Origin: Acidobacteriota bacterium
GTDB taxonomy: Bacteria; Acidobacteriota; Vicinamibacteria; Vicinamibacterales; UBA2999
Length of the DNA: 54,679 nt
Assembly: GCA_030650395.1 (NCBI GenBank)
Contig: JAUSDY010000165.1
Location: 1-54,679 of the forward strand
Direction of reading: 5' to 3'
The position numbers and the translations under genes are program-made. Each line of letters starts with the position of its first letter. Position 1 is the first letter of the stretch. This document shows, piece by piece, positions 9,615-48,640 of this stretch. Below the pieces are notes generated by a model. The model saw only the letters and a list, made by a program, of their open reading frames with translations. It did no database searches and was not told where the DNA came from.

Positions 9615-9705
9615 CAGGGATCAGGGATCGGGGATCAGCGAATCAGAGAGCACTGGTGCGCTGATCTCTGATCCCTGCCCCGATCCCTGATCCCTGATCC
9701 CTGAT
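9615..9705. repeat. Heptanucleotide array, GGGATCA arms in opposed orientation
   Basis: Left of about 9640 the strand reads GGGATCAGGGATCGGGGATC; right of 9660 it reads repeated TGATCCC units (about five). The arms are reverse complements separated by about 20 bases, so the whole block could fold into a long imperfect hairpin. It sits between convergent genes (receptor and SpoIID-like), followed directly by a REP-like hairpin. Confidence 0.8.
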
Positions 9706-9729
9706 CGCGGAACTAAAGTTCCGCGCTAC
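9706..9729 (-). repeat. REP-like hairpin 4 (CGCGGAAC stem)
   Basis: Arms CGCGGAAC (9706-9713) and GTTCCGCG (9718-9725) enclose TAAA and are followed by CTAC. It lies between the convergent stops and could act as a bidirectional transcript end. Confidence 0.85.
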
Positions 9730-26454: not shown

Positions 26455-29400
26455 TCAATGAAAATCGTGGGAATCAAACGCCGCCTGTTCGGACAAGCCA
26501 TCCAGTTTCGTCACGCGCTCCGCCTTGATCGACGTCACGCCGTCCTGGTTCTGCAGCACGCCCTCGACGAGGAGAAAAGACGACTCGACGATGGTGAGGC
26601 GATCGGTGGCGTAGAGGTCGGGCCGGATGATGATGTTCGAGATGCCGGTCTCGTCTTCCAACGTGAGAAAGACGAACCCTTTCGCGGTGCCGGGGCGCTG
26701 GCGCGTGATCACCATGCCGGCGGTGCGCACGCGGCGGCCGGCGCGCGCCTTCGGCAAGTCGATCGCCGGTAGCACGCCGCGCATCGCCAACTCGTGACGG
26801 CGGAAGGTCAGCGGATGCGGGCCGGCGGTAAGGCCGGTGCCAGAATAGTCGGCTACCAGTCTTTCCGAGATGTTCATTTCGGGAAGAGGCGACTCGTTTG
26901 TGCCTTCTGCCTTTTGCCTTCTGCCTTCCGTCTCTTCGAAGAGCTCGCCCGCGGGACGGACCGCGCGTTCGATCTGCCACAACGCTGAACGGCGATCGTG
27001 TCCCAGCGAGTTGAGCGCGCCGACTTCGGCGAGCGTCGCGATTTCGTCACGGCGCAGGCCGGTACGGCGGATCAGCTCGTCGATCGTGCCGAACCGTTGC
27101 AAAGAACGCTCAGGCTCAACCTTCCATTCGTTCGAGCACACGTTGCAAAAGAGGGCTTGAGGACTTGAGGGCTTGAGGGCTTGGACGGCTTCAATCAGCG
27201 TCGGATCATCGCATCCGCATTTGGGACACCGCGGTTCGCTTTCTGCCTTTTGCCTTTTGCCTTCTGCCTTGGCAATGGCCTGTCCTTTTTCTTCGCGCAG
27301 GCCCCGCACATAACGCAGGCCGACGCGAATCGAGCCGTCGGCTTCGACCGTGCAATCCCAGTCGGACACCTGCACGTCGATCGATCCGAACCGCACGCCG
27401 CGCCGCTGCGCGTCTTTCACCAGCGTGGCCGGATGGTAAAACCCCATCGGCTGGTTGTTGAGCAGCGCCGTATAGAACGCCGCCGGGTAATGCGCCTTGA
27501 AGTACGCGCTCGCGTAGGCCAGCAGCGCGAAGCTCGCCGCGTGCGACTCGGGGAATCCGTAGAGCGCAAACGAGGTGATCGCGAGCACGATGCGATCGGC
27601 CGCGTCGCCGGTGATGCCGTTCTTCGCCATGCCCTCGCGCAGCAGGCCTTCGAGCTGCTTCATGCGCTTCTCGGATCGCTTGAACCCCATCGCGCGCCGC
27701 AGGTCTTCGGCCTGACCGCCGGTGAACCCGGCGACCACCATCGCCATCCGCAGCAACTGTTCCTGGAACAACGGCACGCCGAGCGTCCGCTTCAGGATCG
27801 GCTCGAGCAGCGGATGATCGTACACGACTTCTTCGCGCCCGGCGCGGCGATTGAGATAGGGATGCACCATCTGCCCGACGATCGGGCCCGGGCGGATGAT
27901 CGCGACCTCGACGACGAGATCGTAGAAGTGCTCGGGCTGCATGCGCGGCAACGTCGCCATCTGCGCGCGCGATTCGACCTGGAACACGCCCACGGTGTCG
28001 GCCGCGCACAGCATGCGATAAACCTCGGGGTCATCCGGTGGAAGAGACGCAAGACTGACCCCTCGCTGACGGGAGGGCATAAAAGCCGCGTCGGGAGAAT
28101 GATCATTGTCGGGAGCCTGACTGTTGTCGGGAGAGTGCTGCTTGTCGGGAAATGCCTGACGCGAATTTCCCCGACCCGTAATGTCCTCCCGACCCGTCGT
28201 TTCCTCCCGACCCAGAGCACCCTCCCGACCGAAAGTTCCCTCCCGACTGTTTATAAGATGAATGGTGTCCTGTAACACCGCCATCATGCCAAGGCCGAGC
28301 AGATCGACCTTGATGATGCCCATGTCGGCGCAGTCTTCCTTGTCCCACTGCACCACGACGCGGCCGGGCATGCTGGCATTCTCGAGTGGCACCACCGACG
28401 ACAGGTCGCCCTGGCACACCACCATGCCGCCCGAATGCTGGCCGAGGTGGCGCGGCAGGTCCTGCATTTGCCGCCACAGCTCGGCGAAATGCTTCACGCG
28501 CGGGGCGTCGCCGGCCATGCCGACCTCGGCGAGCCGCCTGGCCAGCGTGTCGTCGGGATCGATGTACTCGAACTGGTGCATCACCTTGGCCAGTCGATCG
28601 ATCTGGACCTCGTCGAGATCGAGCGCCTTGCCAACCTCGCGCGCCGCGCTCTTGCCGCGATAGGTGATGACGTTGGCCGTCATGGCGGCGCCGTGCTGCC
28701 CGTACTTCTGGTAGACGTGCTGGATCACGCGCTCGCGGCGATCGCCGCTCGGCAGATCGAGATCGATGTCGGGCCACTCGCCGCGCTCTTCCGACAGGAA
28801 CCGCTCGAACAGCAGCTCCATGCCCACCGGATCCACGGCGGTGATGCCGAGGCTGTAGCACACGGCGCTGTTGGCGGCCGAGCCGCGGCCCTGCACCAGG
28901 ATGTCCTGCTGCCGGCAGAAATTGACGATGTCCCAGACGATCAGGAAGTAGCCGGCGAGCTCGAGCTTGTCGATCAGATCGAGCTCGCGTGTCACCTGCA
29001 CGCGCGCCTTGTCGTGATACGGCCGGTAGCGATCGCGCGCGCCGACTTCGGTGATCTTGCGGAGGAACGAGGTCTCGCTCTCGCCATCGGGCACCGGGTA
29101 TTTCGGAAAGCGATAGCCCAGGTCGCGCATGCTGAACTGCAGGCGATCGGCCAGCTCGCGCGTGGCATGCACGGCTGCGGGGCGATCGGCAAACAGCCGC
29201 GCCATTTGCGCGGGCGGCTTCAGGTAGCGCTCGGCATTGGCCGCCAGCCGGCGCCCGGCGAGGTGCAGCGGGATGTGCTCGCGAATCGAGGTCAGCACGT
29301 CGAACAGCGGCCGCTCCTCAGGCGTGGCAAAGCCGACGCCGCCGGTGGCAACCACCGGCACGCGAAACGCATCGGCCAGGCAGGCGAGCGTGTCGTTGTC

Positions 29401-29958
29401 GTCTTCCTGGTCGCGATGCAGGTGGCGCTGCAGCTCGACGTAAGTATTATCGCGGCCGAAGGTGCCGACGATGCGATCGAGCAGGCCGCCGACCCCGTAG
29501 CGCTCGGCATGCAGCAGCGGCCGGCCCGGCATGGCGACGAGTCCCGTGGTGTAGCCGTCCATCTCCGCGAGCGTGAGCGCGCCCTCCCCCTTCGGCGCGC
29601 GCAGCTTCATGCACGAGATCAAGCGACAGAGATTGCGCCAGCCTTCCTGGGATGACACTAAAACTGGTAGAGAAAAGGCAGAAGGCAAAAGGCAAAAGGC
29701 AAAACTACGGCCACGCTTTTCTGCATTCTGCCTTCTGCCTTCTGCATTCACTTCGATCGTGAGTTCGGCGCCGATGAGCGGGCGGAGGCCGGCGGCGAGG
29801 GCGGCTTTATGGAAGCGAGGCGCGCCCGACACGCCGTCGCGATCGAGCAGCGCTACCGCCGGATAGCCGAGCAGGGCCGCGCGATCGACCAGTGTCTCGG
29901 GCACCGACGCCGCGCGCAAAAAACTGAACGCTGAAGAAGCATGGAGCTCGATATACAC
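26455..29958 (-). CDS. dnaE2: Error-prone DNA polymerase DnaE2 (ImuC)
   Basis: A 1167-residue C-family polymerase: PHP domain (start to about 250), palm with the catalytic acidic cluster EWPDIDLDLPSG, thumb/fingers, helix-hairpin-helix and a C-terminal OB fold (RVRTAGMVITRQRPGTAKGF). It performs translesion synthesis with ImuA and ImuB. The first PHP metal motif is degenerate (LHASSAFSF in place of HxHxxxS). Translation starts at GTG 29958. Compared with the family, the chain carries five extra low-complexity segments that map onto DNA repeats: 26900-26930, 27150-27185, 27238-27272, 28065-28250 and 29667-29750. All keep the frame. The gene is longer than usual because of them; the catalytic blocks remain continuous. 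Confidence 0.95.
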   Translation of the reverse strand: MYIELHASSAFSFLRAASVPETLVDRAALLGYPAVALLDRDGVSGAPRFHKAALAAGLRPLIGAELTIEVNAEGRRQNAEKRGRSFAFCLLPSAFSLPVLVSSQEGWRNLCRLISCMKLRAPKGEGALTLAEMDGYTTGLVAMPGRPLLHAERYGVGGLLDRIVGTFGRDNTYVELQRHLHRDQEDDNDTLACLADAFRVPVVATGGVGFATPEERPLFDVLTSIREHIPLHLAGRRLAANAERYLKPPAQMARLFADRPAAVHATRELADRLQFSMRDLGYRFPKYPVPDGESETSFLRKITEVGARDRYRPYHDKARVQVTRELDLIDKLELAGYFLIVWDIVNFCRQQDILVQGRGSAANSAVCYSLGITAVDPVGMELLFERFLSEERGEWPDIDLDLPSGDRRERVIQHVYQKYGQHGAAMTANVITYRGKSAAREVGKALDLDEVQIDRLAKVMHQFEYIDPDDTLARRLAEVGMAGDAPRVKHFAELWRQMQDLPRHLGQHSGGMVVCQGDLSSVVPLENASMPGRVVVQWDKEDCADMGIIKVDLLGLGMMAVLQDTIHLINSREGTFGREGALGREETTGREDITGRGNSRQAFPDKQHSPDNSQAPDNDHSPDAAFMPSRQRGVSLASLPPDDPEVYRMLCAADTVGVFQVESRAQMATLPRMQPEHFYDLVVEVAIIRPGPIVGQMVHPYLNRRAGREEVVYDHPLLEPILKRTLGVPLFQEQLLRMAMVVAGFTGGQAEDLRRAMGFKRSEKRMKQLEGLLREGMAKNGITGDAADRIVLAITSFALYGFPESHAASFALLAYASAYFKAHYPAAFYTALLNNQPMGFYHPATLVKDAQRRGVRFGSIDVQVSDWDCTVEADGSIRVGLRYVRGLREEKGQAIAKAEGKRQKAESEPRCPKCGCDDPTLIEAVQALKPSSPQALFCNVCSNEWKVEPERSLQRFGTIDELIRRTGLRRDEIATLAEVGALNSLGHDRRSALWQIERAVRPAGELFEETEGRRQKAEGTNESPLPEMNISERLVADYSGTGLTAGPHPLTFRRHELAMRGVLPAIDLPKARAGRRVRTAGMVITRQRPGTAKGFVFLTLEDETGISNIIIRPDLYATDRLTIVESSFLLVEGVLQNQDGVTSIKAERVTKLDGLSEQAAFDSHDFH
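26900..26930 (-). repeat. In-frame GCCTTCT/GCCTTTT heptamers in dnaE2 (site 1)
   Basis: About four 7-base units GCCTTCT, GCCTTTT, GCCTTCT, GCCTTCC are read on the minus strand as EGRRQKAEG just before the OB-fold region. Confidence 0.8.
27150..27185 (-). repeat. In-frame GGCTTGAG-type units in dnaE2 (site 2)
   Basis: Four units of 8 bases around GGCTTGAG encode VQALKPSSPQALF. The insert lies within a small cysteine pair region (CPKCGC and CNVCSNEW) and splits it. The same unit recurs at 6549-6597. Confidence 0.75.
27238..27272 (-). repeat. In-frame GCCTTTT/GCCTTCT heptamers in dnaE2 (site 3)
   Basis: About four heptamers encode AKAEGKRQKAE. Only about 55 bases separate it from site 2. Confidence 0.8.
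28065..28250. repeat. 18-bp repeat array with opposed arms inside dnaE2
   Basis: CGGGAG cores begin at 28070, 28092, 28110, 28128 and 28146, then the orientation flips and CCGAC cores begin at 28171, 28189, 28207, 28225 and 28243. All right-arm steps are exactly 18 bases; three of the left steps are 18 and one is 22. The product has a matching six-residue period, GREGAL/GREETT/GREDIT, then PDKQHS/PDNSQA/PDNDHS. It sits between the polymerase core block ending LINSREG and the segment SLASLPPDDPEVYRMLCAAD. Confidence 0.9.
29667..29750. repeat. Heptamer array with opposed arms inside dnaE2 PHP domain
   Basis: The left arm carries AAGGCAG/AAGGCAA units (about four), the right arm CTGCCTT/CTGCATT units (about four), separated by GACTACGGCCACG-like sequence. 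In protein it gives AEGRRQNAEKRGRSFAFCLL and PSAFS, an interruption of the PHP domain after GAELTIEV. Confidence 0.85.
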
Positions 29959-30054: not shown

Positions 30055-31530
30055 TTAATCCACTACGCCTTCCAGGAACCACTGCCCGACGCCGCGTTCG
30101 ACGACCAGGCGGTAGATGGTGCCGTCGGCCATCGCCACGTCCCATTCGTCGCGGTCCCAGGCCTGCCCTGCTTCCCACCATTCACCCGACGTGCGCCATG
30201 GGCCGGCCGCTTGGAGAATTGCGCCGCTACTAAACCCTTGGCGCTCGACCTGAACACGAACAGGCCTTCCCTCGGTTACCACCACACGGGCGGGGACGGG
30301 AAACCTGAACCTGCGGAGTGAAGAGTTCAGAGTTAAGAGTTCAGAGGCTAAAACGCCAGCGGTTCTTAACTCTGCACTCTGAACTCGAAACTCTTTCATT
30401 TCAAAGGCTCCTGGCCGCCAGGTATCTACCAACTGCGGGGAGCCGACGTGTCCGTGTCCCATCAGGGCCGTGAGCCGCGCGATCAATGTCGACACCTGTT
30501 CCACCGCCGGCTGCGCGCGCGCGAGCAGCGTCCACTGCACGACGCGGCCGGGCGTCGGCTCGATCAACACCCGCACGGTGTCGATCGGCGCGTCGGGCGG
30601 ATGCGTCTCGAGGTCGAGCAGGATCAGCGTGCGCAACGTCTTGGGATCGCGCATCGGCGCCGGCAGCTGCAGCGTCCGCGTGAACACCGCCTTGGTGGTG
30701 AGCCGCAGCGAAGTCAACAGCACGGAGGCGCCGCGATCGGCGCGCTCCAGCCGTTCCGACAACGGCTCGAGCAACCGCGCCAGCACGAACGACAGTGGCT
30801 CGAGCCCTTCGATCGGCCATTCGAGCTCGAGCGCGGCTTCAAACGGCACCTCGTCGACCCACGGCACCATTGGCCGGGCATCTTCGCCGCGCGCGACGGC
30901 CTGCCACTGCACGCCGCGATCGCCGAGCCGCTCGAACACCTCGGGACCCGGCAGCGCGGCAAGCGCGCCAAGCGTGCGGATGCCCCACTTGGTCAGGATG
31001 TCGAGTTGGCGATTCTCTCCAACACGGCGCTTGCCCCGGCTCGCTTGATGGGTATGGCGAGGATGATTCCATCCGCCGTCGGCCTTCTGCCTTGTGCCTT
31101 CTGCCTTCTGCCTTGTCTCGGGCTCGGTTTCGACACCCAGGAGCTCGAATGCATCGAGTACCGACACGCCGAGAGGCGCGAGCGCGTGCGCTTCTTTGCC
31201 AGGCTCGACCACGGTGAGGCCGGGGCGGCCTAATGCGAGCAGGGCCGCGGCGGTTTGCGTGGACGCGATCGCCACGCGAGGCTGCATTTCATGACGGGAG
31301 GGCACTTCTTGTCGGGAGGGCACCTCTTGACGGGAGGGCATTTCTTGTCGGGAATTCAATGCCTCACTCAGATGCTCCCCGAGTTCCCGCGCGGTGCCAA
31401 ACAGGCGCGACAGGCCGCTGGCATCGAGCAGCACCAGCGGGCCGACCTGTTCGAAGCGCGGCGTAAACGCGCGCGCCACGCCGACCAGCGCCGCCACCGG
31501 AGTGGACGGGGAATATAACGCGGCAAACAC
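30055..31530 (-). CDS. imuB: ImuB, Y-family polymerase-like mutasome protein
   Basis: A 491-residue DinB/UmuC-like protein lacking the usual polymerase catalytic start; it opens FAALYSPSTPVAALVGVARA, then LLDASGLSRLFGTARELGEH. The helix-hairpin-helix and little-finger parts include TKWGIRTLGALAALPGPEVF and WPIEGLEPLSFVLARLLEPL. ImuB is the catalytically dead adaptor that links DnaE2 to the sliding clamp. It starts with GTG 31530, two bases after the imuA stop (TGATCGTG), so the genes are coupled. Three repeat insertions keep the frame: 30321-30397, 31083-31118 and 31290-31360. Confidence 0.9.
   Translation of the reverse strand: MFAALYSPSTPVAALVGVARAFTPRFEQVGPLVLLDASGLSRLFGTARELGEHLSEALNSRQEMPSRQEVPSRQEVPSRHEMQPRVAIASTQTAAALLALGRPGLTVVEPGKEAHALAPLGVSVLDAFELLGVETEPETRQKAEGTRQKADGGWNHPRHTHQASRGKRRVGENRQLDILTKWGIRTLGALAALPGPEVFERLGDRGVQWQAVARGEDARPMVPWVDEVPFEAALELEWPIEGLEPLSFVLARLLEPLSERLERADRGASVLLTSLRLTTKAVFTRTLQLPAPMRDPKTLRTLILLDLETHPPDAPIDTVRVLIEPTPGRVVQWTLLARAQPAVEQVSTLIARLTALMGHGHVGSPQLVDTWRPGAFEMKEFRVQSAELRTAGVLASELLTLNSSLRRFRFPVPARVVVTEGRPVRVQVERQGFSSGAILQAAGPWRTSGEWWEAGQAWDRDEWDVAMADGTIYRLVVERGVGQWFLEGVVD
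30321..30397. repeat. Opposed-arm GAGTTCA heptamer array in imuB
   Basis: The left arm reads GAGTTCAGAGTTAAGAGTTC; about 25 bases later the right arm reads TTAACTC, TGCACTC, TGAACTC, GAAACTC. It encodes FEMKEFRVQSAELRTAG...SELLTLNSSL near the C-terminal third. Confidence 0.85.
31083..31118 (-). repeat. GCCTTCT heptamers in imuB
   Basis: Four to five units (GCCTTCT, GCCTTGT, GCCTTCT, GCCTTCT, GCCTTGT) encode TRQKAEGTRQKADG, a repeat visible in the protein as well. Confidence 0.8.
31290..31360 (-). repeat. 18-bp array in imuB
   Basis: Four cores CGGGA begin at 31295, 31313, 31331 and 31349, exactly 18 bases apart. Units differ at one or two positions (CACTTCTTGT, CACCTCTTGA, CATTTCTTGT). They encode the six-residue repeat SRQEVP. 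Confidence 0.92.
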
Positions 31531-31532
31531 GA

Positions 31533-32402
31533 TCAGCCCGCGTTGATGAGGGCGGTTTCAAAGCCCACGTGCCGAACCTGCGACGATCGCGCCGCGCTGA
31601 TGCCCGCGCTCGTGCGCACGCCACCTAGTCTTCGCGTCCGATCGTGATTGCCCTTCCACAGAACCTGACGGGAGGCACTGCTTGTCGGGAGGGCATCACT
31701 TGTCGGGAGGGCACTGCCCGTCGGGAGGGCACTTCTTGTCGGGTTTTCACCGCCAAGAACAATCGATTTCCCCCCGCTGCTACGCGCGACAGGGATGGCG
31801 GCGAGAATCAGCACCGCGGTAGCGCTGCCTTCGATGGCGCGCTCGATGCGGAACCAGGTGGCAGCGGGCAACCGGCGTAGCGCGTTGGCGGGCACGTCGA
31901 TCAAATCGATCACCACCAACGTGCACACGCCCGACTGCACGACGAGATTGAGCGACTTCAGCGCGCGATCGATCACGCGCTCCACGAACGTGCCGGGCCC
32001 GCCCACCGCGCGCACGCCCGGCAGCCACGCCGGATCGACGGCGCCCGAGGTTTTCGAGACCGCCTGGCCGCGCACCCACAGCAGGCGCGCGAGATCGATC
32101 CCGCAGGCCGCCGCCGTCGGCGGATCGAACCGATCGAAGGTGTCGACGAGCGCGACGTATTCGCCACGCCGCGTGGCGGCGGCCATCGCGGCCCATGCCA
32201 GGCTGGTGCGCCCCGATGACGCCGGGCCCACCACTTCGGACACGTGCCCGCGCGGCAGCCCGCCGGCTAATCCGCGATCGAGCGCCTCGACGCCAAGCGG
32301 CGACACGGCATCTTCACCCGGGCATTCGGGAAGCGCAGAGGTCAGGGTGCGGTCGAGCTTTCGATCTCGAAGAAGGGCTTCCACGGTGGCGCGAGCGGCC
32401 AT
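31533..32402 (-). CDS. imuA: ImuA, RecA-like mutasome protein
   Basis: A 289-residue protein with a RecA/SulA-type core: GLAGGLPRGHVSEVVGPASS contains a Walker A (GPASSGRTS, about residues 59-67), then YVALVDTFDRFDP and the Walker-B-like CTLVVIDLIDVP. ImuA is needed with ImuB and DnaE2 for damage-induced mutagenesis. GAGGTGATTT precedes ATG 32402. The last 80 residues include an in-frame 18-bp array (31664-31745) that encodes SALPTG/SALPTS/DALPTS. It is the first gene of the imuA-imuB-dnaE2 unit. Confidence 0.87.
   Translation of the reverse strand: MAARATVEALLRDRKLDRTLTSALPECPGEDAVSPLGVEALDRGLAGGLPRGHVSEVVGPASSGRTSLAWAAMAAATRRGEYVALVDTFDRFDPPTAAACGIDLARLLWVRGQAVSKTSGAVDPAWLPGVRAVGGPGTFVERVIDRALKSLNLVVQSGVCTLVVIDLIDVPANALRRLPAATWFRIERAIEGSATAVLILAAIPVARSSGGKSIVLGGENPTRSALPTGSALPTSDALPTSSASRQVLWKGNHDRTRRLGGVRTSAGISAARSSQVRHVGFETALINAG
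31664..31745 (-). repeat. 18-bp array in imuA
   Basis: Cores CGGG begin at 31669, 31686, 31704, 31722 and 31740. Steps are 17, 18, 18 and 18; the single 17 reflects one missing G in the first unit. The open reading frame survives across it. Confidence 0.9.
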
Positions 32403-39483: not shown

Positions 39484-40719
39484 TTGCAGAACAGATTGAA
39501 TCAAGCCGCGCTGCGCATCGCGGTTGCCCTCACCCACCGCAACTTCCGGCTCCTCTGGTTAGGCGCGCTCACCTCGAGCATCGGCACCTGGATGCAGAAG
39601 ATCGCGCAGGCGTGGCTGATCGTCACGATGACCGGCTCGGCGTCGGCGTTCTACGTCGGCCTCGACAGCTTTGTCGGCGAGCTGCCGATCCTGTTGTTCA
39701 CGCTGATCGGCGGCGTGGTGGCCGACCGGCGCGACCGCCGGCACATGATGCTGACCTCGCAGGTCACGCAGATGGCGGTGGCGTTCACCCTGGCGGCGCT
39801 GGTCTACACCGAAGCCATTCAGATCTGGATGATCCTGACGCTGTCGTTTATCTCGGGCTGCGGGCAGGCGTTCGGCGGGCCGGCCTACCAGTCGCTGATC
39901 CCGACGCTCGTCGGCAAGGAACATTTGCCGAATGCGATAGCGCTGAATTCAATCCAATTCAACCTCGCGCGCGTGATCGGTCCGATTGTCGCCGGCACGG
40001 CGCTGGCCGCCTTCGGCATGGTCGCGTGCTTCGGCCTGAACGGCATCTCGTTTCTGTTCGTGATCGCGGCGATCCTCGCGCTGCGTAACGTGCACGTGCC
40101 GCCGGCTGCCACCACCAACATGCTCGAGCAGATGAAAGACGGCCTGCGCTACGTGCGCAACTCGCGCAACCTGATGATCGTGACGATGCTCGGGTTCACC
40201 GGCGCGTTTCTCGGTTTGCCGCTGTTGACGTTCCTGCCGGTGATCACGAAAGACATTTTTCACCAGGACGTCGGCTTCTACTCGTGGCTGATGACGTGTT
40301 CGGGCGCCGGCGCGGTGAGCGGCGCACTGATCGTGGCGTGGGTCGGCAAGCACCGCCACATCGGGCGGATGCTGCTGGTATTCCTGGCGCTGTTCGGCAC
40401 GGCGATGGCGGCGTTCTCGCTGTCGAGGACGCCGATCCTGAGCGCGGTGATCCTCTTCATCGCCGGGTCGTTGCTGGTGATGTGCTTCTCGCTGACGACG
40501 TCGCTCGCGCAATTGCTCGCCCCGCCCGAACTACGCGGGCGCGTTGTCAGCATCTACATGGTGGCGTTTCGCGGCGGCTCACCGCTCGGCGGGCTCGCCA
40601 GCGGCTGGCTGGTGACGCAGGTCGGCTCGGCGCCGGCGGTGTTGATGGTGAACGGGGTTGCGTTGGCGTGCATCGCGGTGTTCTTCCTGATCCGCGGCCA
40701 CGGACTGAAGGACATCTAA
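39484..40719 (+). CDS. MFS exporter (EntS/MFS_3-type)
   Basis: A 411-residue, 12-helix major facilitator of the enterobactin-exporter-like MFS_3 group. FRLLWLGALTSSIGTWMQKI opens helix 1, GGVVADRRDRRHMM is the loop 2-3 signature, and QSLIPTLVGKEHLPNAIALN marks helix 5. TTG 39484 is the start that fits helix 1; no ATG lies upstream of residue 36. The last 60 residues are found again at 48325-48504 with four changes. An 18-bp array begins 15 bases after the stop in both places. No regulator or siderophore gene is adjacent. Confidence 0.88.
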   Translation: MQNRLNQAALRIAVALTHRNFRLLWLGALTSSIGTWMQKIAQAWLIVTMTGSASAFYVGLDSFVGELPILLFTLIGGVVADRRDRRHMMLTSQVTQMAVAFTLAALVYTEAIQIWMILTLSFISGCGQAFGGPAYQSLIPTLVGKEHLPNAIALNSIQFNLARVIGPIVAGTALAAFGMVACFGLNGISFLFVIAAILALRNVHVPPAATTNMLEQMKDGLRYVRNSRNLMIVTMLGFTGAFLGLPLLTFLPVITKDIFHQDVGFYSWLMTCSGAGAVSGALIVAWVGKHRHIGRMLLVFLALFGTAMAAFSLSRTPILSAVILFIAGSLLVMCFSLTTSLAQLLAPPELRGRVVSIYMVAFRGGSPLGGLASGWLVTQVGSAPAVLMVNGVALACIAVFFLIRGHGLKDI

Positions 40720-40733
40720 TCCAAGGGATCCTC

Positions 40734-40910
40734 CGGGAGGGCAATTCTTGTCGGGAAGACAACCCTTGACGGGATGGCACTCCTTGACGGGAACGCACAT
40801 CCTGACGGGACAACGCGCGCAACGCGAGATCCCGTCAAGCCCCACCTTCCCGTCAAGAATCATCTTCCCGTCCAGAAGTGCCTTGCCGTCGAGAAGTGCC
40901 TTCCCGTCGT
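40734..40910. repeat. 18-bp array D, opposed arms, downstream of the MFS gene
   Basis: Left-arm CGGGA cores begin at 40734, 40752, 40770, 40788 and 40806; right-arm CCGTC cores begin at 40832, 40850, 40868, 40886 and 40904. Every step is exactly 18 bases. Arms are separated by about 20 bases (ACAACGCGCGCAACGCGAGA). Units conserve an 8-9 base core and vary in the rest. No gene is needed to explain it; frames across it simply repeat DGKALL. Confidence 0.93.
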
Positions 40911-40960: not shown

Positions 40961-41361
40961 TTACGACGGGGCAATGCGCAGGGTTCTGAAGAACCGGCCG
41001 AAAAACCCTCGCGGATATGTCAGCAGGCCTCCGGTCTGGACGAGGCGTGAGCGCCGACCAGGAAATCCACGGGCAAACGCTCTCGCCTCGCGGCGGACGG
41101 TCGGAAGCGGCGCCAGATGCGACCGGCTTCGAGAGCTGCGGCGCTATTGAGGCCGTCGAATTCGACACCTGCCACGATGATCGCTTTCGCGAATGCGTCT
41201 GGAGACGAGAATCGCGCAGACACTTCAGCCCACACGGAATCGCAGGCCACGAGTCGTCCGGCGAGTCGAGCGCGATCGAGGGCCCGGTGCGCCCGGCTGT
41301 GGCTGGCGGATTTCGAGTCGAGGGCATCGAGCAGGATGTCAGCGTCGATTGCAGTGATCAT
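40961..41361 (-). pseudogene. VapC-like PIN-domain toxin with C-terminal frameshift
   Basis: From ATG 41361 the frame gives a PIN domain: AIDADILLDAL with the first acidic residues, ACDSVWAEVSARF with the second, and LPVDFLVGAHA with the third. It then breaks at about 41045 and stops early at 41020. The +1 frame continues QTGGLLTYPRGFFGRFFRTL to a TAA at 40961, which is the normal VapC ending. A single base has been lost, or the read is wrong. No VapB lies upstream, where the CRISPR array begins 37 bases away. It abuts the island's left boundary repeat. Confidence 0.8.
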
Positions 41362-41397: not shown

Positions 41398-41560
41398 GCT
41401 TCAATGAGGCCGCCGCTCTTCAGCGGCGGAAACCCGCATCGTCACCCCTCGCATCGCCGCTTCCATCCGGCTTCAATGCGGCGGAAACTGAAGCGGAGAA
41501 GTTGAGTCCGGTCGGGGCGCAGTAATCGCCGCTTCCATCCGGCTTCAATGCGGCGGAAAC
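41398..41560 (-). CRISPR. Short CRISPR array of three repeats, type I-U/I-G context
   Basis: Two identical 36-base repeats occupy 41453-41488 and 41525-41560, with a 36-base spacer between. They contain CTTCAATGCGGCGGAAAC at the right end. A third, distal copy ends the same way at 41433 but differs in its left part: there CTTCAATG is separated from CGGCGGAAAC by 17 extra bases forming a clean stem (CCGCCGCT/AGCGGCGG), and the spacing to the next copy is 55 instead of 72. The array follows cas4-cas1 on its left, as expected. With one normal spacer it is nearly empty. Orientation is given by analogy with repeats that begin GTTTCCGC on the minus strand. Confidence 0.85.
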
Positions 41561-48266: not shown

Positions 48267-48330
48267 GGTAGCGTCGTGCTCAAACGGACGTCCCTCCGGG
48301 TCGAAACCATATCGATGGCGCGGGCGCGTC
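48267..48330 (+). pseudogene. Remnant of a SEC-C-protein-like gene
   Basis: Encodes GSVVLKRTSLRVETISMARA plus RR, matching residues of the SEC-C protein at about 53719-53784 with three changes in 22. The similarity ends inside GGGCGCG, where the MFS-like piece begins. It is a fused scrap, not a gene. Confidence 0.8.
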
Positions 48331-48504
48331 GTCGGCATCTACAGAGTGGCGTTTCGCGGCGGCTCACCGCTCGGCGGGCTGGCCAGAGGGTGGCTGGTGA
48401 CGCAGGTCGGCTCGGCGCCGACGGTACTGATGGTGAACGGGGTTGCGCTCGCGTGCATCGCGGTGTTTTTTCTCATTCGCGGTCATGGACTAAAAGACAT
48501 CTGA
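48325..48504 (+). pseudogene. Duplicated 3' end of the MFS exporter gene
   Basis: Sixty codons, GRVVGIYRVAFRGGSPLGGL through FFLIRGHGLKDI and stop, match the end of the MFS gene (40537-40719) in 56 of 60 residues. No start or N-terminal part is present. An 18-bp array follows, as it does after the parent gene. The joint with the SEC-C-like piece lies in a shared GGGCGCG, suggesting microhomology-mediated fusion. Confidence 0.88.
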
Positions 48505-48514
48505 CCGCGACAGA

Positions 48515-48640
48515 CGGGACCGCACTTCTCGACGGGATCGCACTTCCTGACGGGAAGATGTTGCTAGCCGGGATCCCGGTCAAGAATCACCTTCCCGTCA
48601 AGCCTCACCTCCCCGTCAAGAGGTGCCTTCCGGTCTACAG
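48515..48640. repeat. 18-bp array E, opposed arms, disrupted by the IS element
   Basis: Left-arm cores CGGGA begin at 48515, 48533, 48551 and 48569; right-arm GTC positions are 48579, 48597, 48615 and 48633. All steps are 18 bases. The arms meet in the perfect palindrome CCGGGATCCCGG (48568-48579). The ISKra4-family element is inserted in the last unit. Confidence 0.92.

Follow-up and report, generated by a model that had tools for sequence, protein, structure and literature searches.

The FB elements of Drosophila are foldback elements. The nematode foldback element Tm1 is described as having long inverted ends built from short tandem units whose number varies, with unequal arms, a variable middle and MITE-like copies devoid of a transposase gene; its ends are on average 93.15% identical and its target-site duplication is about 9 bp (PMC3169594). 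REPINs and the GTAG- and CGTC-type REPs of bacteria are reported to be dispersed and mostly arranged in head-to-head pairs (PMC3733652; PMC3116915), with a palindromic unit of 20-40 bp, singletons that are remnants of pairs in one species, copies inside genes including DnaE2, and no dedicated transposase described for the CGTC type (PMC3733652). STAR elements of Staphylococcus have a conserved G+C-rich core of 14 bp and a recurring spacer of at least 40 bp and are interspersed as intergenic direct repeats, their means of spread being given as not known (PMC3532100). The BrickBuilt minisatellite in a Porphyromonas MITE combines tandem units with inverted ends at many loci, in the form of a single tandem array with small inverted ends that is always intergenic in the published account (PMC4596501). 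TAACTGA heptamers and the constant-size repeats of Bacillus form short tandem arrays at many genomic places and are described as direct repeats without opposed arms (PMC4679880; PMC8161180), with one indirect repeat among 169 sets in the case of TAACTGA (PMC4679880).

Here we analyse a family of arrays of 18-bp units in an Acidobacteriota genome, taking as reference the window, i.e., the whole stretch of 54,679 nucleotides from which the family was described. These arrays share with foldback elements the inverted arms made of short tandem units in variable number, the unequal arms, the variable middle and the copies without a transposase gene, but they are bacterial, no target duplication was seen, no transposase-bearing copy was found, and within an element the linkers of one arm are unlike those of the other. 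With the REP families they have in common dispersal, pairing, singletons and presence within DnaE2, whereas their unit hardly folds, is tandemly repeated and is not an imperfect palindrome of 20-40 bp; a RAYT gene flanked by the repeat, as in the GTAG type, was not seen in the 10 of 44 Y1 matches viewed. They resemble STAR elements in core, recurring spacer and interspersion, BrickBuilt in tandem units, inverted ends and number of loci, and the heptamer-type repeats in being short tandem arrays at many places, and differ from all of these in the opposed arms. The 18-bp arrays work most like a foldback element and live like a CGTC-type REP pair, and we class them as neither because the tests for the target duplication and transposase of the former and for the palindromic unit of the latter were negative. 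Searches of the open-access literature yielded no bacterial foldback element with tandem-unit arms, and the convergent 18-bp arms look like a new variant among dispersed bacterial repeats and a small mobile DNA family. A sequence-only reading had recognised neither a CRISPR nor an iteron, and this holds: CRISPR arrays are direct repeats beside cas genes with unique spacers of about 25-40 bp, in contrast to related 11-bp linkers in two orientations at about 50 loci, and plasmid iterons form one array by a replication gene, in contrast to arrays on many contigs with no plasmid match to one 101-base query.

The array at 40732-40908 and its neighbours in the window

The array at 40732-40908 comprises ten cores spaced by 18 bp, five per arm. 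The left arm (40732..40810, + strand) has cores at 40732 (degenerate, TCCGGGA), 40750, 40768, 40786 and 40804; a loop (40811..40829) separates it from the right arm (40830..40908, - strand), with cores at 40830, 40848, 40866, 40884 (degenerate) and 40902, so that orientation flips between the cores at 40804 and 40830. The ten cores, 18-base steps and central flip first read from the sequence are therefore confirmed, with the qualification that two cores are degenerate. Compared with a loop motif from other loci, the loop scores 9 of 14 when read from the + arm and 12 of 14 from the - arm. The left arm begins 12 bp past the stop codon of an MFS transporter gene (39592..40719, + strand), and a PIN-domain protein gene (41020..41361, - strand) lies downstream. 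Allowing up to three mismatches, the 18-mer has nine matches in the window against 0.03 expected, a count reached in none of 100 shuffles.

The coordinates also bear out the initial count of five arrays in the window. A two-arm array (28068..28247, + strand) lies inside the ORF of a DnaE2-type DNA polymerase III alpha (26455..29958, - strand) without a stop in read-through, and single-arm arrays (both + strand) lie inside the ORF of an ImuB-like protein (array 31293..31364; gene 30055..31530, - strand; named from its place in the cassette, with no Pfam match at E 0.001) and in the 3' part of the ORF of an ImuA/RecA-like protein (array 31667..31743; gene 31533..32402, - strand). The three reading frames stay open through their 18-mer arrays. 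The fifth, a two-arm array (48513..48635, + strand), starts 8 bp past the stop codon of an MFS fragment (48307..48504, + strand) that corresponds, with 89% identity, to the final 65 codons of the full MFS gene (39592-40719); nothing else of this second copy was found. The segment 48307-48635, with the fragment followed by its own two-arm array, repeats the arrangement at the full gene, and the array may have travelled together with the fragment.

Arrays of shorter units occur in the same window. Two convergent arms of 7-mers are found at 29675..29749 (AAGGCAG type, inside DnaE2, hereafter site 1; tract 29673-29749), 30322..30386 (AGAGTTC type, inside the ImuB ORF; tract 30316-30386) and 9615..9711 (CAGGGAT type), all listed on the + strand, and further arrays of 7-8-base units at 26901-26928, 27151-27183 and 27239-27270 in DnaE2 and 31075-31116 in ImuB. 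The 7-8-base-unit arrays in these two genes encode low-complexity inserts such as RRQKAEG. An Rfam search of window positions 27900-48800 returned three matches (E up to 0.5), all below gathering scores and none on an 18-mer array; one of them covers a 7-mer array (29668-29753). A sub-threshold match to CRISPR-DR16 (28.9 bits against a gathering score of 35) is seen at one place, 41398-41434.

Unit, core and spacing

Anatomy was scanned in 40 regions of the host genome (G000), 36 of them around pattern matches, which together with the window amount to 732 kb and yielded 60 clusters, two weak ones being removed before the context count. The initial description of a conserved core of 8-9 bases with a variable remainder stands as to the conserved core, whose best-kept stretch, GWCGGGA, is shorter at seven bases. 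Conservation is also good at some positions of the linker; units were selected by their core, hence the linker frequencies alone are informative in this profile. Arms consist of 2-5 scored units, or up to 6 if degenerate cores are included. Adjacent units within an arm resemble each other more closely than they resemble units from elsewhere (0.65 versus 0.58-0.59 in G000; 0.78 versus 0.65-0.66 in the related genome G008), a sign of local duplication. Another type of linker, combined with an unchanged core at 21-base spacing, was observed at G000:C116:38931-38979 and G008:C1:13943-13991. Taken singly, the two 18-mer units tested had folding energies of 0 and -0.6 kcal/mol and were no more stable than shuffled sequences.

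The same core recurs with spacing of 15-22 bases (mostly 16-20) in G036, from another genus of the family, and of 15-18 bases in the MAG SJ725. It had been proposed that a unit length divisible by three makes the arrays harmless in genes. This is borne out in part only. By rough ORF calls, 10 of 58 arrays lie in long ORFs, three of them in the window, and the A-type unit (A as second core base) has a TGA in one frame. The T-type unit has no stop in any of six frames, as is also true of 31% of shuffled units, and its enrichment inside ORFs (8 of 10 arrays versus 21 of 48 elsewhere, p 0.08) is only suggestive. Since spacing in G036 runs from 15 to 22, the length of 18 looks unlike an adaptation to the reading frame.

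Distribution among genomes

A search of the host genome (5.41 Mb, 180 contigs) for three successive cores gave 99 exact matches, against none for the reversed control, and manual grouping assigns these matches to approximately 50 places. The other genomes of the genus are uneven, with 122 matches in G008, 66 in G004, three each in G001 and G006 and none in G002, G003, G005 and G007; two of the eight are thus comparably rich. The G005 copy of the MFS locus carries a related array below the triple-core threshold. At the family level, 6 of 43 genomes have the pattern. Hence the arrays are neither limited to the five of the window nor missing from relatives. Assembly error is an unlikely source, as other assemblies contain 18-mer arrays at orthologous positions.

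When the core is relaxed and spacing left free, the pattern is found in 18 of 193 genomes of the class, some of its matches resembling other repeats, and its reversed control also matches (control against pattern: 6 against 23 in G000, 19 against none in G064 and 13 against none in G128). Arrays of the 7-mer GTCGGGA are present in G038, G188 and G050. A wider contig scan gave at least 113 stretches, at least two of which (L039 and L099) contain no fewer than two units that reach a score of 14 under the G000 profile; both belong to the MAG 'Acidobacteria bacterium ND5_Bin_50', which is identical to G008 (4215 bases at 100%). Virus, plasmid and phage sequences gave no match to one pattern or one 101-base array query.

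Orientation and correspondence of the arms

Opposed neighbouring arms no more than 1 kb apart converge in all 28 pairs from three genomes (convergent versus divergent: 20 versus 0 in G000, 6 versus 0 in G008 and 2 versus 0 in G004), and divergent neighbours appear only beyond 1 kb (seven in G000, three in G008). All five two-arm clusters of G036 are likewise convergent, its remaining clusters being one-stranded, and SJ725 has one facing pair. Thirty of the 70 arms of G000 have no opposed arm within 1 kb.

The inner ends of the arms also recur. In G000, GGGATCTCGCTTAG-like sequences are found at 13 of 70 inner ends (0.5 in shuffles) and CGGGAAAATGC-like sequences at 16 of 70 (2.65 in shuffles), with none of either at outer ends; both motifs were picked by eye from the same arms in which they were then counted. 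They are not enriched at the inner ends of G008 (0 and 1 of 23) or G004 (0 and 0 of 9). We read the recurring loops as the spread of whole elements within the G000 lineage. Ordinary minisatellites, formed by in-place replication slippage around a chance core without movement between loci, would account for the local homogeneity of units, the variable spacing in G036 and the GTCGGGA arrays of G038, G188 and G050, and are in line with our finding neither a mover nor a target duplication in the searches described below. Slippage arising independently at each locus would not be expected to give one and the same core at about 50 places, a pair of loops that recur and neighbouring arms that converge, and we regard this origin as unlikely.

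Covariation between the arms, proposed in the sequence-only reading as a check, was seen at one position at most. Left and right linkers are no more alike within elements (0.58, 0.56) than between them (0.57, 0.56; permutation p 0.46, 14 elements of G000), and no signal was obtained from the two testable elements of G008. The second core base (A or T) agrees more often within than between elements (0.60 versus 0.42), a marginal result (p 0.049) and a weak sign that the arms of one element share a subtype. Arm lengths within an element are not matched beyond chance (p 0.37). Neither a hairpin maintained by linker covariation nor equality of arm lengths is accordingly supported. Two arrays fold as single strands into one long hairpin (z -7.3 as DNA, -5.7 as RNA), as expected because opposed cores must pair in this way. 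At L326 the arms meet without a loop. The linker result also speaks against a foldback-like nature of the arrays, in that a recently copied hairpin should show linker correspondence and these arms show none.

Placement relative to genes

By rough ORF calls, the 10 of 58 arrays inside long ORFs include the three in DnaE2, ImuB and ImuA of the window, and in many others one boundary lies no more than a few tens of bases from a called gene, in some cases directly after its stop codon. One array (L146) sits between a divergent gene pair. As read from the context table, arms point away from the adjacent gene regardless of its strand. A selected cis element near gene ends, such as a protein-binding array, a terminator or an RNA hairpin, might explain the many arrays near gene boundaries and right after stops, the long hairpins of two arrays (z -7.3 as DNA, -5.7 as RNA) and those arrays that are common to orthologous sites. 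It agrees poorly with the 30 of 70 arms lacking an opposed arm within 1 kb, with arrays in ORFs and between divergent genes, with the outward direction of arms beside genes of either strand, with linkers that do not compensate between arms, and with the 45 of 67 syntenic pairs in which the relative has neither type of array (see below). Such a function is doubtful as the main explanation.

Convergent arms 201-1000 bases apart were found at five places in G000 and two in G008, and those viewed in G000 enclose small genes. They flank an alpha/beta-hydrolase gene at L154 (8239-9263), a 23S rRNA intervening-sequence protein gene at L163, an OmpH-like protein gene at L158 and unnamed short proteins at L152 and L171; the L154 locus of G001 and G008 has a plain + array without the gene. 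The stretch between the arms of L152 (9375-9661) matches the same locus of G002 (L235 9763-9963) in inverted orientation. In our reading of L171, each arm has a separate loop, beyond which lies a decayed partner arm, so that some distant arm pairs appear to be two separate elements.

Orthologous sites and 7-mer arrays

Among 67 pairs of a G000 array and a syntenic relative, several of which represent the two arms of one locus, the relative shows an 18-mer array in 15 cases, a 7-mer array in 7 and no array of either type in 45. For 150 random places, which gave 99 syntenic pairs, the corresponding counts are 3, 1 and 95, these control places being 80 bases long and thus shorter than the array-site segments of up to 1.8 kb. 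The excess of 7-mer arrays at array sites has a Fisher p of 0.003, or 0.018 after removal of one weak case and one double count. By genome, an 18-mer array is present at 6 of 28 syntenic sites in G001 and at 7 of 12 in G008 and 2 of 2 in G004, whose loci had been fetched for having arrays. G001 has the highest DnaE2 identity yet lacks 18-mers at 22 of 28 sites, and gain and loss are therefore inseparable at most sites. An example of an orthologous site without the array is L160 7705, where the sequences of G001 and G008 can be aligned and that of G000 is longer by approximately 175 bp.

Corresponding positions of DnaE2 and ImuA bear different tandem arrays, mostly of 7-mers, from one species to the next. 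Read by eye, site 2 of DnaE2 has 18-mers in G000 and G008, and at least three kinds of 7-mers across G001, G002, G003, G004 and G007; in G005 and G006 it is empty. At site 1, differing 7-mer-type arrays are present in six of the seven genomes with sequence there (a loose one in G003), and none is evident by eye in G008. The ImuA site (31667..31743 in the window) has 7-mers in G005 and G008. Opposed 7-mer arms of G000 form 16 pairs, 12 in one order and four in the other, the sign being a convention; all pairs in the minority order come from the AGATCTG-like and ATTTGTT groups of units, in which no other order is seen. G001 has one pair of each order and G003 one pair. Many 7-mer unit groups consist of a single pair and thus cannot speak to constancy of order.

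It is conceivable that all of these arrays, from the 18-mers and the 15-22-base units in G036 to the several families of 7-mers, belong to a single class of DNA. A shared machinery would then write or move tandem arrays of any unit present in a given genome, always with one strand facing inward and always at a small set of permissive sites, leaving different species with different arrays at orthologous positions. We consider this improbable; in its boldest form, it would involve a repeat-writing enzyme unrelated to the reverse-transcriptase family PF00078.

Search for a mover

Searches for Y1 transposases, reverse transcriptases and IS256-type transposases revealed no candidate that tracks the arrays, and no linked transposase of the kind suggested by the sequence-only reading apart from one decayed IS256-type fragment in a G008 element. 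Y1 transposase (PF01797) is present in all nine genus genomes, including those without 18-mers. Of the 44 matches, the ten inspected have a core cluster nearby only at L207 of G008, where four cores on one strand lie about 1 kb from the gene. The sole Y1 gene of G000 has another repeat beside it, the 26-bp GGACAAACCTAAAGGTTTGTCCCCAC (L210 3062-3140), which is likely a separate REP family. Copies of GGTTTGTCCCCACG appear to the right of the array at 15.4 kb in L160. A RAYT-driven REP is not supported, given that the Y1 genes inspected are not flanked by arrays and the unit is not palindromic.

IS256-type transposase was detected in 8 of 13 genomes searched and not in G000 or G004, which argues against it as the mover in G000 and means that the Mutator/IS256-type transposase associated with foldback elements was not found in either genome. 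In G008 (L352 1-370, G008:C6), convergent arms enclose the decayed IS256-family fragment, a remnant of 38 residues that is 66% identical to a G005 protein; seven other fetched IS256 loci have no core cluster. Flanks of 28 elements show no target-site duplication (match 1.54 within versus 1.50 between elements), with element ends that were set automatically, overran at L160 7705 and, if decayed or misplaced, could mask a duplication. A possible 6-9-bp repeat was noticed by eye at the flanks of L160 7705.

Telomerase- or DRT10-like addition of repeats to 3' ends at breaks, followed by joining (for DRT10, see PMC12632851), would place the same strand on each end, so that arms would always converge and be independent of each other. 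It would fit the convergence, the unequal and single arms, the loop-free meeting at L326, the absence of linker correspondence, the constant strand order in 7-mer families with more than one pair (manual grouping) and the presence of Ku in 14 of 16 genomes. Within the genus, however, reverse transcriptase (PF00078) was found in a single genome of nine, and the fragment concerned resembles a group II intron protein. Among other genomes searched, 5 of 11 have the family; it was not found in G004, G008, G036, G038, G188 and G050, all six of which carry 18-mer or 7-mer arrays. Its distribution does not follow the arrays, and neither a reverse-transcriptase product in general nor a DRT10- or telomerase-like product in particular is supported in terms of PF00078. 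The recurring loops of G000 and the second core base common to both arms also disagree with such addition; Ku, missing in G002 and G003 (which have no 18-mers), is present in other 18-mer-poor genomes. We judge repeat addition at breaks very improbable.

A foldback-like reading and its implications

On balance, it is somewhat probable that the arrays are copies of a foldback-like repeat that is non-coding and dispersed, in which the GWCGGGA core is conserved and the linker drifts. What the sequences show directly is the family, its dispersal, the convergence of neighbouring arms, the recurring loops in G000, the lack of linker correspondence and orthologous sites of relatives without the array. 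The likeness of neighbouring units, the second core base and the gene between arms at L154 also favour the reading. The searches that found neither a mover nor a target duplication, arms unmatched in length and linker, and the 22 of 28 G001 sites without 18-mers weigh against it. An element would run from an outer end through a few units (GWCGGGA core and 11-bp drifting linker) to a short loop, often palindromic itself, and into an opposite-strand arm built from the same units. A trans-acting factor needing the core may have copied whole elements to new places in this lineage. Arms would then grow and shrink by local tandem duplication, and one arm would frequently be lost, leaving single arms beside genes. 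Insertions would survive between genes and in tolerant parts of proteins. As the least certain step, arms flanking accessory genes may offer short homology for gene exchange.

If the foldback-like reading is right, the arrays would be a bacterial counterpart of eukaryotic foldback elements in which the core is kept while linkers drift, and the core would be a direct handle on the factor that moves the element. The replacement of one array family by another at corresponding sites in DnaE2 and ImuA is an unusual feature that lends itself to testing. Moreover, captured repeat DNA would account for some of the disordered repeat inserts found in the proteins of these bacteria, and calls of starts and stops near gene ends could be affected.
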